Shown here in pieces: positions 45,461-54,482 of a stretch of DNA of 64,000 nucleotides. The DNA is from Sedimenticola sp. (lineage in GTDB: Bacteria; Pseudomonadota; Gammaproteobacteria; Chromatiales; Chromatiaceae), in the NCBI GenBank assembly GCA_002869585.1, contig PKUO01000011.1, forward strand, positions 1 through 64,000, written 5' to 3'. Within the stretch, counting starts at the first letter, position 1. The number at the start of each line of letters is the position of its first letter. The notes under the pieces were generated by a model. That model saw nothing but the letters and a program-made list of their open reading frames with translations, searched no databases and was not told the DNA's origin. The position numbers were made by a program, and so were the translations under genes.

Positions 45461-45838
45461 TCAGGATAGAGTGACCCCGTTCGAATGACCATGGTCATGG
45501 TCGCTCTCCACAGCCGGCGGCAGCGTTTCACCTCTGGAGACGGCCTGCGCGGCAGCCAGCGTATCGGTTTCACCCGTGGCAAGCACCAGGACACCCATGC
45601 GTGCCAGTTTGTTCTTGAAACCCTCTCCACAACCGCCTGTAATCAGGATGTCGAGTTGCTGCAGCGGATGCGGTTCACTGCCCCTGTATTCGTGCATCGA
45701 CATCTCTTTGGGGAAATCCCAGCGTTCGAGCTCCACAGGCTCACCGCCCGACTTTGATTCATAGACCAGGAAGCGACGGGTCTTGCCGGCGTGTCCGGTG
45801 ATGGTCTTGAAGTTCTGACTGGTGATGCCGATTTTCAT
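45461..45838 (-). CDS. NifX/NifB-C-like dinitrogenase cofactor family protein with His-rich tail
   Basis: The 125-residue protein has the dinitrogenase iron-molybdenum cofactor fold: MKIGITSQNFKTITGHAGKTRRFLVYE, then DILITGGCGEGFKNKLARMGVLVLATGETDTLAAAQAV. Its C-terminus has DHDHGHSNG, a likely metal-binding tail. Related stand-alone proteins occur widely and need not relate to nitrogen fixation; no nif genes are in the window. It follows DUF6858 by 7 nt, so the two are co-transcribed. Confidence 0.88.
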   Translation of the reverse strand: MKIGITSQNFKTITGHAGKTRRFLVYESKSGGEPVELERWDFPKEMSMHEYRGSEPHPLQQLDILITGGCGEGFKNKLARMGVLVLATGETDTLAAAQAVSRGETLPPAVESDHDHGHSNGVTLS

Positions 45839-45845
45839 GCTGTTG

Positions 45846-46238
45846 CTACCTGTTGCATATGGCCTTGACCCACTCTTCCATGGTGATATTCGCCACAGGC
45901 ATCGGGGCCTCGATAAAGGTGATCAGAAATTTGTCTTCCATCTCGGTAACCCCGATGGATCGGGGTCGGACCGCCATCACGTCGGGACTGGGCAGGGTGA
46001 TGCCAAAACAGAAAATGATGCTCATGGCATCAATGATCTCATCCGCGATCTGGCCCTGGGGAAGCTGCTGGGTGTGCGCGTAGTGGTCGAAAATCGCAAT
46101 AAAGGTGGCGGTCTCATGTGTATTTATCTGCTCTTGCAGATAGTCGATGATCTCTTTTGCCGTTGTGAATCGCGTTTCTGATTTTTCCACTTCAAGCGAA
46201 AATACAGCATATTGATTTTGCTGTAAGGACTGCTTCAT
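45846..46238 (-). CDS. DUF6858 family protein
   Basis: Started at the ATG at 46238 (130 residues), with AGGAG six bases upstream; an upstream start at 46334 would add 32 residues without support. The core reads QYAVFSLEVEKSETRFTTAKEIIDYLQEQINTHETATFIAIFDHYAHTQQL and ends IIFCFGITLPSPDVMAVRPRSIGV. I recognise this as DUF6858, mostly seen in sulfur-oxidising and related proteobacteria; the function is unknown. It precedes the NifX-like gene and follows a Crp/Fnr gene and a palindromic operator. Confidence 0.82.
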   Translation of the reverse strand: MKQSLQQNQYAVFSLEVEKSETRFTTAKEIIDYLQEQINTHETATFIAIFDHYAHTQQLPQGQIADEIIDAMSIIFCFGITLPSPDVMAVRPRSIGVTEMEDKFLITFIEAPMPVANITMEEWVKAICNR

Positions 46239-46305
46239 TGACCACTCCTGACTGACGTGCAAACCCATAGGGCGGCTTCCGGCGGGACCACCGCACAATG
46301 TGGGA

Positions 46306-46350
46306 AAAATAACCCTAGTCTGGAGTATGCGCATTGAAAATACGCAATGC
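46306..46350 (-). promoter_or_regulatory. Palindromic operator and class-II-like promoter of DUF6858-NifX-like genes
   Basis: GCATTG and CAATGC (46331-46336 and 46345-46350) form a perfect 6-bp inverted repeat with an 8-bp spacer, which includes TTG-N8-CAA as in Fnr-type boxes. On the minus strand a TATTTT -10 lies at 46311-46306, giving a start near 46299. The operator centre is then at about -41.5, the position for class II activation by Crp/Fnr proteins. The regulator gene lies directly upstream. Start site is predicted, not measured. Confidence 0.5.
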
Positions 46351-46390
46351 CTGAGGTCTTTTCTGGGTTTATGGCAGTTCGGGTGTGTGG

Positions 46391-47095
46391 TCAGTCTTCA
46401 GCCAGATGCTGCAGATTGCGGATATCGAGCAGGAACAGGTTCGGGCGGGTCTCCACCAGCAGGCTCTGACGTTTGAACTCTGCAATGGTGCGGCTGGCGG
46501 TTTCGGTGGTGATGCCCAGCATGGCGCCCATGTCTTCACGGGAAAACAGCTCGCATTCGCTGGACTGTTCGTTGCGAACCAGGCGTAGCAGCAGTCTGGC
46601 GACGCGCTGCTTTGCCGAACCGGTGGAGAGTTCGGTGAGCCAGGCATCGGCCTCGTTGAGTGCCTTCTGCCAGCGTGTCAGCAGTTCCTGGTGCAGTAGT
46701 GGGTTGGTGCGGGATAACGCCTTTACCACCGTAACCGGGAGGCTGCAGGCCTCGGTGGGGTGCAGAACCACGGCATCATGCTGATAGGGTTGGTCGAGCA
46801 GGGCTTCAAGGCCGATGACATCGGTGCTTCGAATCAGGCGCACGATACGCTGAGTGCCGTCCGGCAGATACTGCACCAGTTTGAGAATGCCGTTACGGAT
46901 GGTGTACAGCCGCTCGCCCTTGTCGCCGGCCCGGTAAAGCGTTGATCCGGGCGGCAATGTATAGAGATCAATGGGCTGATGAATCTGATCAAAGTCCTGT
47001 TCGGTGAGTCCGGCAAAGAGTACCGAGTTGCGTAGCGTGCAGCTCAGACAATTGGCTTCACCCTCCCATGCCTCTTTGTCAGTGATCAGTTTCAT
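46391..47095 (-). CDS. Crp/Fnr family transcriptional regulator
   Basis: The 234-residue protein has a cyclic-nucleotide-binding-like barrel (LPPGSTLYRAGDKGERLYTIRNGILKLVQYLPDGTQRIVRLI) and an Fnr-type helix-turn-helix (SREDMGAMLGITTETASRTIAEFKRQ with the recognition ETASR). Cysteines at 16, 19 and 117 are present; E. coli Fnr uses four (three N-terminal, one central), so an Fe-S cluster would need another ligand. It is upstream of DUF6858 and the NifX-like gene and could control them through the palindrome at 46331. Its signal, oxygen, NO or redox, cannot be told. Confidence 0.9.
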   Translation of the reverse strand: MKLITDKEAWEGEANCLSCTLRNSVLFAGLTEQDFDQIHQPIDLYTLPPGSTLYRAGDKGERLYTIRNGILKLVQYLPDGTQRIVRLIRSTDVIGLEALLDQPYQHDAVVLHPTEACSLPVTVVKALSRTNPLLHQELLTRWQKALNEADAWLTELSTGSAKQRVARLLLRLVRNEQSSECELFSREDMGAMLGITTETASRTIAEFKRQSLLVETRPNLFLLDIRNLQHLAED

Positions 47096-50784: not shown

Positions 50785-53697
50785 ATGCAGGATCCAACAG
50801 CGCAATCTGATCGGGATGTTGGCCGTGTAGAGGTTAAAGAGACCACCTGTTACATGTGCGCCTGCCGCTGTGGTATTCGCGTCACTCTGCGTGACGGTGA
50901 GATTCGTCATATCGAGGGCAATCCGAATCACCCGTTGAATCACGGCGTGATCTGCGCCAAGGGCGCTTCGGGCATCATGAAGCAGTATTCTCCGGCGCGT
51001 CTGACCAAACCGCTGCTGCGCAAGAAGGGCGCTGAGCGGGGCGATTCTGAGTTCGAGGAGATCTCCTGGGATCGGGCATTTCAGATCATGGAGGAGCGGC
51101 TCAGCAAGATCCGCGCTGAAGACCCGAAGAAATTCGCCCTGTTCACCGGTCGCGACCAGATGCAGGCGCTGACCGGGATGTTCGCCAAGCAGTTCGGCTC
51201 ACCGAACTATGCCGCCCATGGTGGTTTCTGTTCGGTCAACATGGCCGCTGGCCTGATCTACACCATCGGCGGCTCATTCTGGGAGTTCGGTGGCCCGGAT
51301 CTGGACCGTTCGAAGCTGTTCATCATGATCGGCACGGCGGAGGATCACCACTCCAATCCGCTGAAGATTGCCATCTCCAAGTTCAAGCGCAGGGGCGGTC
51401 GTTTTATCTCGATCAACCCGATCCGCACCGGCTACTCGGCGGTGGCGGATGAGTGGGTGCCGATCAAGCCCGGCACTGACGGCGCACTGCTGTTGGCGAT
51501 CATCCACGAGCTGATCAAGCAGGGTCTGTACGACCGTGACTTTCTGATTCAGTACACCAACTCGGCAGAGCTGGTGATCAACGACCCAAAACGTGACGAT
51601 CACGGCCTGTTCAAGCGTTTTGAAATGCACATCGAAGAGGGTTGTTTCGACCCGGAGAACAAGCTCTGGTGGGACCGTGATCTGGACAAGGAGATCTCCA
51701 CCCACACCCCGGGCAGCGATCCGCGCCTGCTGGGCGAGTTCGAGTTGCAGGATGGCACCCCGGTCAAGCCCGCCTTTCAGTTGCTGAAGGAGCGTGTCGA
51801 GGAGTACACCCCGGAGTGGGCCGAGGGCATCACAGGCGTGTCTGCCGAGACCATTCGCCGCCTGGCCCATGAGATGGGCGTCACCGCGCGCGACCAGAAA
51901 ATCGAGTTGCCTATTGCCTGGACCGACTGCTGGGAGAATGAACATACCTCGGTGACCGGTAATCCAGTGGCCTTTCACGCGATGCGCGGACTGGCGGCAC
52001 ACTCCAACGGTTTTCAGGGGATTCGCGCACTGGGAATCCTGATGACCCTGCTGGGGACCATTGACCGCCCTGGTGGCTTCCGTCACAAGGCGCCGTTTCC
52101 ACGCCCGATTCCGCCCTGTCCCAAACCGCCCAACAGCCCGGATGGGGTGCAGCCGAATACGCCTCTGGATGGCATGCCGCTGGGCTGGCCATCAAAGCCG
52201 GAGGATCTGTTCGTCGATGAACAGGGCGAGGCGGTGCGCCTGGATAAGGCCTTCTCCTGGGAGTATCCGCTGTCGGTGCATGGCCTGATGCATAACGCCA
52301 TTACCAATGCCTGGCGGGGCGATCCCTACAAGATCGACACGCTGCTGTTGTTCATGGCCAATATGGCCTGGAACAGCTCGATGAACACCGCCAATGTGCG
52401 TGACATGCTGAAGGACAAGGATGAGAACGGCGAGTACAAAATCCCGTTCCTGATCGTCTGTGACAGCTTTTCATCCGAGACCGTCGCCTTCGCCGATCTG
52501 GTGCTGCCGGATACCACCTATCTGGAGCGTCACGACGCGCTCTCCATGCTGGATCGCCCCATCTCTGAATTCGATGGGCCGGTGGATTCCGTGCGTGTGC
52601 CGATTCTGCCGCCCAAGGGCGACTGCAAGCCCTTCCAGGAGGTGCTGATCGAGTTGGTATCGCGGCTTAAACTGCCTGCCTTCGTGAACGAGGATGGCAC
52701 CCGAAAATACCGCAACTACCCGGAATTTATTACCTACTATGAAACCTCGCCGGGTTCCGGTATCGGTTTTCTGGCGGGCTGGCGCGGCAAGGGCGGCGAG
52801 AAGTTCCTCAAGGGTGAACCCAACTCCCGTCAGTGGGAGATGTACCAGAAGAACGATTGCGTCTACCAGTACCATCTGCCGAAGTCCTACCAGTACATGC
52901 GCAACTGGAACAAGGGTTATCTGCAGTGGGCGCGTGCCCATGGCATGACCCGCTATGCCGAGCCGATCACCATCCATCTCTACTCAGAGGTATTGCAGAA
53001 GTTCCGCCTCGCTGCCCAGGGCAAAGGCAAGGGGCGCAAGCCACCGGAGCGCCTGAGAAAGCGTCTGGAGATGCATTTCGATCCGCTGCCGTTTTTCAGT
53101 GAGCCGCTGTTGTCGCGCCTGGTCGATACTCATGAATATCCCTTGAATGCGCTGACCCAGCGGCCGATGGCGATGTATCACTCCTGGGACAGCCAGAATG
53201 CCTGGCTGCGTCAGATCCACACCCACAACTACCTGTTCGTCAATCCTCTGCTGGGCAAACAGAAAGGCTTCGCGGATGGGGATTGGGTGTGGGTCGAGTC
53301 ACCCACCGGCAAGGTGCGCTGCATGTGCCGTTTTTCCGAGGCGGTGGAGCCGGAAACGGTCTGGACCTGGAACGCCATCGGCAAGGCGAGTGGCGCCTGG
53401 GGACTGTCGAACAAGGCCAACGAGTCTCAGATAGGGTTTCTGCTTAATCACGTCATTCCGGAGGAACTGCCGCCCTGCGAGGCCGGATCGTTCATGTCCA
53501 ACTCCGATCCTGTCACCGGACAGGCGGCCTGGTTCGACGTGCGGGTCAAGGTCTACAAGGCGGAAGACAATGAGCCGGCCCAGACCTGGCCGCAGTTCAA
53601 GGCGCAGAAGCATCTGCCCGGACAGGATAAACGTCGGCGCGGTCGCTGGCAGGCCTATTTTGCCGGCCTGTTCCGCAGGAAGGCGAACATCGATTAA
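50785..53697 (+). CDS. soeA: Sulfite dehydrogenase (quinone) molybdenum subunit SoeA
   Basis: The 970-residue molybdopterin oxidoreductase has an N-terminal [4Fe-4S] set CX2CX3CX27C (Cys22, 25, 29, 57) and Cys149 in HGGFCSVN as a possible Mo ligand. There is no Tat signal, so it stays in the cytoplasm, as in Allochromatium SoeABC. With the four-cluster ferredoxin and the NrfD-type membrane protein next to it this is a SoeABC set rather than PsrA/PhsA. It would oxidise sulfite to sulfate. Length, lack of leader and gene order fit SoeA; related reductases of unknown direction remain possible. Confidence 0.9.
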   Translation: MQDPTAQSDRDVGRVEVKETTCYMCACRCGIRVTLRDGEIRHIEGNPNHPLNHGVICAKGASGIMKQYSPARLTKPLLRKKGAERGDSEFEEISWDRAFQIMEERLSKIRAEDPKKFALFTGRDQMQALTGMFAKQFGSPNYAAHGGFCSVNMAAGLIYTIGGSFWEFGGPDLDRSKLFIMIGTAEDHHSNPLKIAISKFKRRGGRFISINPIRTGYSAVADEWVPIKPGTDGALLLAIIHELIKQGLYDRDFLIQYTNSAELVINDPKRDDHGLFKRFEMHIEEGCFDPENKLWWDRDLDKEISTHTPGSDPRLLGEFELQDGTPVKPAFQLLKERVEEYTPEWAEGITGVSAETIRRLAHEMGVTARDQKIELPIAWTDCWENEHTSVTGNPVAFHAMRGLAAHSNGFQGIRALGILMTLLGTIDRPGGFRHKAPFPRPIPPCPKPPNSPDGVQPNTPLDGMPLGWPSKPEDLFVDEQGEAVRLDKAFSWEYPLSVHGLMHNAITNAWRGDPYKIDTLLLFMANMAWNSSMNTANVRDMLKDKDENGEYKIPFLIVCDSFSSETVAFADLVLPDTTYLERHDALSMLDRPISEFDGPVDSVRVPILPPKGDCKPFQEVLIELVSRLKLPAFVNEDGTRKYRNYPEFITYYETSPGSGIGFLAGWRGKGGEKFLKGEPNSRQWEMYQKNDCVYQYHLPKSYQYMRNWNKGYLQWARAHGMTRYAEPITIHLYSEVLQKFRLAAQGKGKGRKPPERLRKRLEMHFDPLPFFSEPLLSRLVDTHEYPLNALTQRPMAMYHSWDSQNAWLRQIHTHNYLFVNPLLGKQKGFADGDWVWVESPTGKVRCMCRFSEAVEPETVWTWNAIGKASGAWGLSNKANESQIGFLLNHVIPEELPPCEAGSFMSNSDPVTGQAAWFDVRVKVYKAEDNEPAQTWPQFKAQKHLPGQDKRRRGRWQAYFAGLFRRKANID

Positions 53698-53756
53698 AGG
53701 CACTGTGCTGAAGCTGTAAGCACCAGCGTCTGAGATAGAATGATTTAGGATCTGAA

Positions 53757-54482
53757 ATGACACAACTAGCCTTGGTAATCGACCTCAATGTCTGCGTGGG
53801 ATGCCATGCCTGCGTCACCAGTTGCAAGGAGTGGAACACCTCGGGTTGGGCCGGGCCCATGCCGGATGAGCGCGCCTATGACGCCGATCCGAGTGGGGTG
53901 TTTTTCAATCGCGTACAGACCTATGAGATCGGTGTCTTCCCGAATACCGAGACCCTGCATTTTCCCAAGTCCTGCCTGCACTGCGAAGATCCCCCCTGTG
54001 TGCCAGTATGCCCCACCGGGGCCAGCTACAAGCGCGAGGACAACGGTGTGGTGCTGGTCGATTATGACAAGTGCATCGGCTGCAAATACTGCTCCTGGGC
54101 CTGTCCCTACGGTGCGCGTGAATTCGATGAACAGGGTAAGGTGATGAAGAAGTGCACCCTCTGTATCGATCGTATCACCGACATGACCCTCCCGGAGTCC
54201 GAGCGTAAACCGGCCTGTGTGCTGGCCTGTCCGACCAGTGCACGCATCTATGGTGATGTACATGATCCCGGTTCGGAGGCATCCCAGGCGATACGCGAGC
54301 AGGGCGGCTATCAGCTGATGCCGGAGTGGGGCACTGAGCCGGCCAATCACTATCTGCCGAGGCGCAAGATACGCATGCACATCCATGAGGATGAGTTGGT
54401 CAGGGCCGACAACCCGTTGTCGAAAGAGGGTGTCGAGCTGCCATTCGATCAGGGTGAAACCCTGGATGATGTGGCCTGGTAA
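53757..54482 (+). CDS. soeB: Sulfite dehydrogenase iron-sulfur subunit SoeB
   Basis: The 241-residue ferredoxin-type protein has four Cys groups for [4Fe-4S] clusters: CVGCHACVTSCKEW, CLHCEDPPCVPVCPTGA, CIGCKYCSWACPYGA and CTLCID ... CVLACPT. It carries electrons from SoeA to the membrane subunit. The gap after soeA is 59 nt. The C-terminus (HIHEDELVRADNPLSKEGVELPFDQGETLDDVAW) is a long acidic tail. Confidence 0.92.
   Translation: MTQLALVIDLNVCVGCHACVTSCKEWNTSGWAGPMPDERAYDADPSGVFFNRVQTYEIGVFPNTETLHFPKSCLHCEDPPCVPVCPTGASYKREDNGVVLVDYDKCIGCKYCSWACPYGAREFDEQGKVMKKCTLCIDRITDMTLPESERKPACVLACPTSARIYGDVHDPGSEASQAIREQGGYQLMPEWGTEPANHYLPRRKIRMHIHEDELVRADNPLSKEGVELPFDQGETLDDVAW

Follow-up and report, generated by a model that had tools for sequence, protein, structure and literature searches.

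The locus analyzed here raises the question of whether a Crp/Fnr-type regulator and two small proteins of unknown role form one regulatory module, and which cellular process such a module would serve. It lies within a stretch of 64,000 nucleotides from Sedimenticola sp. (referred to as the window), and all of its elements are on the minus strand. The regulator gene (46391-47095, 234 aa), whose PF00027 and PF13545 domains score above cut-off with 62.5 and 53.5 bits, respectively, and place the product in the Crp/Fnr superfamily, is separated by 152 bp from a gene encoding a DUF6858 protein of 130 aa (45846-46238). The exact palindrome GCATTG-N8-CAATGC claimed for this gap by the first-pass annotation is present as GCATTGCGTATTTTCAATGC (TTG-N8-CAATGC, 20 bp, 46350-46331), a predicted operator by motif match and conservation in relatives. 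It is followed by a predicted -10 hexamer, TATTTT (46311-46306), supported by a TANNNT spacing common to most of the loci compared, and by the sequence AGGAG (46245-46249), a possible ribosome-binding site 7 bases 5' of the DUF6858 ATG. The open reading frame list gives a longer DUF6858 gene with a start at 46334, but homologues begin at an MKQ equivalent to position 46238. The family assignment is PF21651 (E 9e-58; 194 bits versus a cut-off of 27). The NifX-like gene (45461-45838, 125 aa), identified by its match to PF02579 and encoding a protein with a His-rich tail, has the same orientation and begins 7 bp past the DUF6858 stop codon, so the two genes are probably co-transcribed.

A search of the host genome for the exact palindrome, as proposed along with the original claim, identified the window copy as the only one in 3.93 Mb. 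As a bare 6+6 palindrome arises in this gap in 17% of shuffles and is unremarkable alone, the case for an operator rests on its conservation. About 80 DUF6858 loci from 36 genera and 14 loci from distant taxa were sampled, and a motif was trained on 36 DUF6858 loci, all outside the genus of the window. Against this motif, with the consensus TTGA-N4-TTTCAATGC, the window site scored 27.8 bits, a value reached by none of 2000 shuffles of the gap (maximum 16.0). Scanning 1.36 Mb yielded 134 matches of at least 11 bits, training loci included, compared to 7 in the reversed sequence. The motif was found upstream of DUF6858 in 53 of 53 sampled loci linked to the regulator and in 23 of the 28 unlinked ones, amounting to 76/81 loci and 34/36 genera. 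As the motif is thus kept in relatives, the lack of conservation that would have spoken against the proposed module was not observed. Within 204 genomes of the family, the exact motif occurred 202 times, with one to a few copies per genome, compared to a single occurrence for the reversed control. It was present in 97 of the 119 genomes with DUF6858 and in 32 of the 85 without (Fisher p 2e-10; the counts ignore relatedness and the genomes are not independent); those 32 genomes carry the motif in the absence of the gene. It also precedes stand-alone tehA or nifX genes. For most other one-mismatch sites in the host genome, no supporting context was found.

The position of the site was equally constrained. 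In the window, the first base of TATTTT is located 29.5 bp from the operator center, which places the center at -41.5 relative to a transcription start predicted near 46299, the spacing that had been claimed. Among the 63 loci in which a site on the strand of DUF6858 scores 17 bits or more, a TANNNT hexamer starts 28.5-30.5 bp downstream of the site center in 57, corresponding to a center at -40.5 to -42.5; shuffles gave a mean of 2.2 and a maximum of 7, and no other position comes near. This fixed distance strongly suggests the placement of a class-II activator, as in Crp/Fnr-activated promoters with a center around -41.5, here deduced from the -10 spacing.

The regulator is FNR-like but not FNR, as judged from its sequence. 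It scores 70.3 bits with the NCBIfam FNR model (NF008365), far below the cut-off of 228. In an alignment to FNR of Aliivibrio fischeri, its residues C16, C19 and C117 correspond to the cluster ligands C20, C23 and C122, whereas V25 occupies the position of C29, where none of 52 orthologues has a cysteine; three instead of four cluster cysteines are therefore aligned. The three Fnr-like cysteines of the first-pass annotation are accordingly present; a fourth cysteine, C181, is likewise unchanged in each of the 52 orthologues aligned. Within the recognition helix, the invariant E198, S201 and R202 align with the E-x-x-S-R of FNR, matching the TTGA core of the site. The predicted model resembles the structures of FNR, GlxR and CRP (Z about 22-23; A. 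fischeri FNR about 22.8). Residues 1-18 of the model have a pLDDT under 50; interpreting C16, C19 and C117 as cluster ligands on structural grounds was therefore rejected, with no distances taken. Together with the TTG-N8-CAA core and the class-II geometry, these features liken the protein to FNR of E. coli and A. fischeri, while the valine in place of C29, the invariant C181, the longer site and the low number of sites in each genome (one to a few) set it apart; inner bases differ from TTGAT-N4-ATCAA, the site of FNR proper, and the extension is conserved. The protein represents a natural FNR variant with one cluster ligand missing. FixK2 of Bradyrhizobium shares the Crp/Fnr fold (Z 22.0), and a cysteine of its DNA-binding domain is redox-reactive; by analogy, C181 could be redox-reactive as well. 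Unlike FixK, however, the regulator carries cysteines at FNR cluster places, and it scores 53 against an NCBIfam cut-off of 300. A single-copy orthologue occurs in 161 of the 204 genomes, and the remaining 43 are without a close one.

To which process the module belongs is indicated by neighboring genes in relatives. In the 53 linked loci, DUF6858 is preceded by the Crp/Fnr gene in the same orientation and in most cases followed by the NifX-like gene, and across the family the order Crp-(TehA)-DUF6858-NifX-(CydAB) is kept on a single strand. This conserved order, together with the site, supports the view of regulator, operator, DUF6858 and NifX-like gene as a module. A gene for a SLAC1/TehA channel is often located 5' of DUF6858, and cydAB, encoding cytochrome bd, follows DUF6858-NifX in 21 of the 53 linked loci and in some others. 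In 42 genomes, cydA lies downstream of the regulator gene in the same orientation at a distance of 3.2 kb or less, in three of them directly and without DUF6858; in two genomes with the regulator directly before cydAB (L279, L281), no good site was found between them. Distant carriers (Rhodocyclaceae, Gallionellaceae and others) have cydAB, nifX or peroxiredoxin genes near DUF6858. Co-occurrence within the family is moderate (DUF6858 with cydA in 68 genomes, alone in 51), and cydA is absent from the host genome. The cytochrome bd link thus comes from relatives, and the module in the host must do something besides serving this oxidase, which is a frequent partner but not the whole point. In one genome without DUF6858 (L286, 1916-6444), a regulator orthologue, a site and a -10 element precede genes matching NorC, NorB, NorE and NorQ domains. 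None was named by an NCBIfam model over cut-off, and we read them as a norCBEQ-like operon. Cytochrome bd is tolerant of sulfide and NO (PMC4815019, PMC10968556). The proposed redox link appears plausible in the light of the cysteines at FNR cluster positions and the cydAB or nor-like genes that follow in relatives. A search of the literature for a NifX/cytochrome bd pairing and for SLAC1 with sulfite in this group yielded nothing useful.

The suggested tie to sulfur oxidation is indirect. A SoeAB-like pair is among the divergent neighbors in many genomes; in the window, no site was found in front of this pair (50785-54482), for which no NCBIfam model scored over cut-off and which we take to be SoeAB. 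In the host genome, sites precede two of four octaheme tetrathionate-reductase-like genes (L186, 4040-4059; L191, 4088-4107). As regulon members, these genes were rejected, as the two sites were not conserved in the relatives sampled: among 30 top-ranked ones sampled, one of them L191's own gene, 2 had a promoter-near site, both on the opposite strand. The terminal oxidase and NO reductase genes provide a better link, and the neighbors assign the module to respiration and not to sulfur oxidation as such.

Of 210 genomes of the order, 124 encode DUF6858, often in two copies, compared to just 3 of 299 across the phylum. The host carries a second DUF6858-nifX copy, preceded by tehA (SLAC1), on another contig (C61). 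M1, H55, C77, R91, P92, F108 and P112 are invariant; the conservation of H55 and C77 suggests a ligand or redox site. No solved structure was found by sequence search. An AlphaFold model (pLDDT 95.6) resembles DUF302 proteins, with Z 12.3 over 109 residues for 1q9u and 10.6 for 1j3m; a Z of 12.7 was obtained for 7tj1, the PDB title of which names a fluoride transporter, and unrelated folds begin at Z 9.0. The predicted model therefore has a DUF302-like fold, but homology by sequence was not supported: none of 71 members matched PF03625, hhalign gave a probability of 0.4%, and DUF6858 is a separate Pfam family. DUF302 genes occur within sox clusters of some sulfur oxidisers, where their role is unknown (PMC5037610). 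The literature searched contained no paper naming DUF6858, and the predicted regulon, for which operator, promoter geometry and partner genes are defined, would provide a first context for this family. The NifX-like protein scores 31.4 bits against the Nitro_FeMo-Co cut-off of 26.3 and matches solved NifX weakly (E 0.11). Unlike NifX/NafY-type members of the Dinitrogenase iron-molybdenum cofactor family, it lacks a nitrogenase context and has a His-rich tail, with DHDHGH near its end as originally described. This tail, found orthologue-wide, is what the suggested metal link is based on.

Taken together, the comparison of sequences shows the site, how it is positioned relative to the -10 element, that it is linked to regulator and targets, and which genes lie nearby; it points to a real, conserved and probably activator-driven regulon. 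We consider it likely that the regulator is a dedicated class-II activator of DUF6858 and the NifX-like gene and, in many relatives, of the cydAB genes that follow. It would bind the motif about 41.5 bp 5' of the transcription start, and in the host it probably also activates the second copy, tehA-DUF6858-nifX. Counting against this reading are the 32 genomes that have sites but no DUF6858, the 43 of 204 genomes that lack a close orthologue of the regulator, the two cydAB loci with no good site (L279, L281) and the lack of cydA in the host. The signal would most likely be a redox-active gas or thiol (low O2, NO, sulfide/polysulfide) sensed through the invariant cysteines. As output, an auxiliary set for respiration or stress tolerance would be made, comprising cytochrome bd, an anion channel of the SLAC1 type and the two small proteins, which may handle cofactor, metal or sulfur species. 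The module thus likely shifts respiration to a stress-tolerant mode when O2 is low or when NO or sulfide is present, and two proteins of unknown role can now be tested directly as parts of a respiratory or stress module. More tentatively, the regulator may be a novel FNR-like redox/sulfur sensor, C29 being lost and C181 added, with a small dedicated regulon, and the DUF302-fold DUF6858 and His-tailed NifX-like proteins may act as a pair on a cofactor or on sulfur or metal species, protecting or equipping respiration whether or not cytochrome bd is present.

The sites might instead be used by another Crp/Fnr protein, either a genuine O2 sensor of the FNR/ANR type or a sensor of NO, with the adjacent regulator being a mere neighbor or itself a target. 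The TTGA-N6-TCAA core resembles an FNR box, and the host genome contains six further Crp/Fnr-like matches, one with a similar CxxC. However, the site extends past the FNR core, to TCAATGC, with a right half of TTCAA rather than ATCAA, the one to a few exact copies per genome are unlike a global FNR regulon, and every regulator-linked locus has the site, which makes this explanation unlikely. Repression of the operon from the site appears even less probable. CydR of Azotobacter, an FNR homologue controlling the cytochrome bd operon, is a known cyd repressor, and the regulator adjoins cytochrome bd genes in some genomes, but a repressor site would not need a spacing as fixed as that in 57/63 loci, and a center at -41.5 (±1) is the classic place of an activator. 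The cioRAB system of Chromobacterium violaceum is a further example of Crp/Fnr or MarR control of a cytochrome bd operon (PMC11837568). Such systems share a dedicated regulator encoded beside the cytochrome bd genes, here in relatives; they differ in that the present regulator is a predicted activator, and that the module includes DUF6858 and a NifX-like gene and is kept in a genome without cydA.

Under the preferred activator reading, the nature of the signal also has to be considered. Persulfidation of the cysteines by sulfide or polysulfide, rather than O2 or NO acting on an iron-sulfur cluster, is a serious possibility, although the balance leans somewhat against it. It would fit the replacement of the FNR ligand C29 by Val, the invariance of C181, the fact that the hosts and some carriers of DUF6858 belong to the sulfur bacteria, and the sulfide tolerance of cytochrome bd (PMC4815019), whereas C16, C19 and C117 occupy the places of FNR cluster ligands, a cluster could be held by three cysteines and one further ligand, and one relative has nor-like genes as a predicted target.

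Several further observations were made at individual loci. Weak matches to the model of cytochrome bd subunit I (E 1e-18 to 1e-25), covering residues 2-251, were obtained in many genomes for proteins some 640 residues long. The tehA/SLAC1 gene on contig C61 (L050, 8399-8932 and 8425-8733) is split between two frames, by a real frameshift or an assembly error. In Rhodospira, outside the family, a similar site, CCATTGCGCTTTCTCATTGC, is located 91 bp 5' of DUF6858 (L036 and L038, position 5900), and no Crp gene was found nearby. In one genus, a stand-alone nifX-like gene with its own copy of the site is flanked by a divergent gene (L208, L209), presumably DsbB-like, and the same gene occurs at L210 and L244. 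In a genome lacking DUF6858, a Crp variant and a site adjoin a gene for a YgaP-like transmembrane protein (PF11127; L240, 3637-4588).
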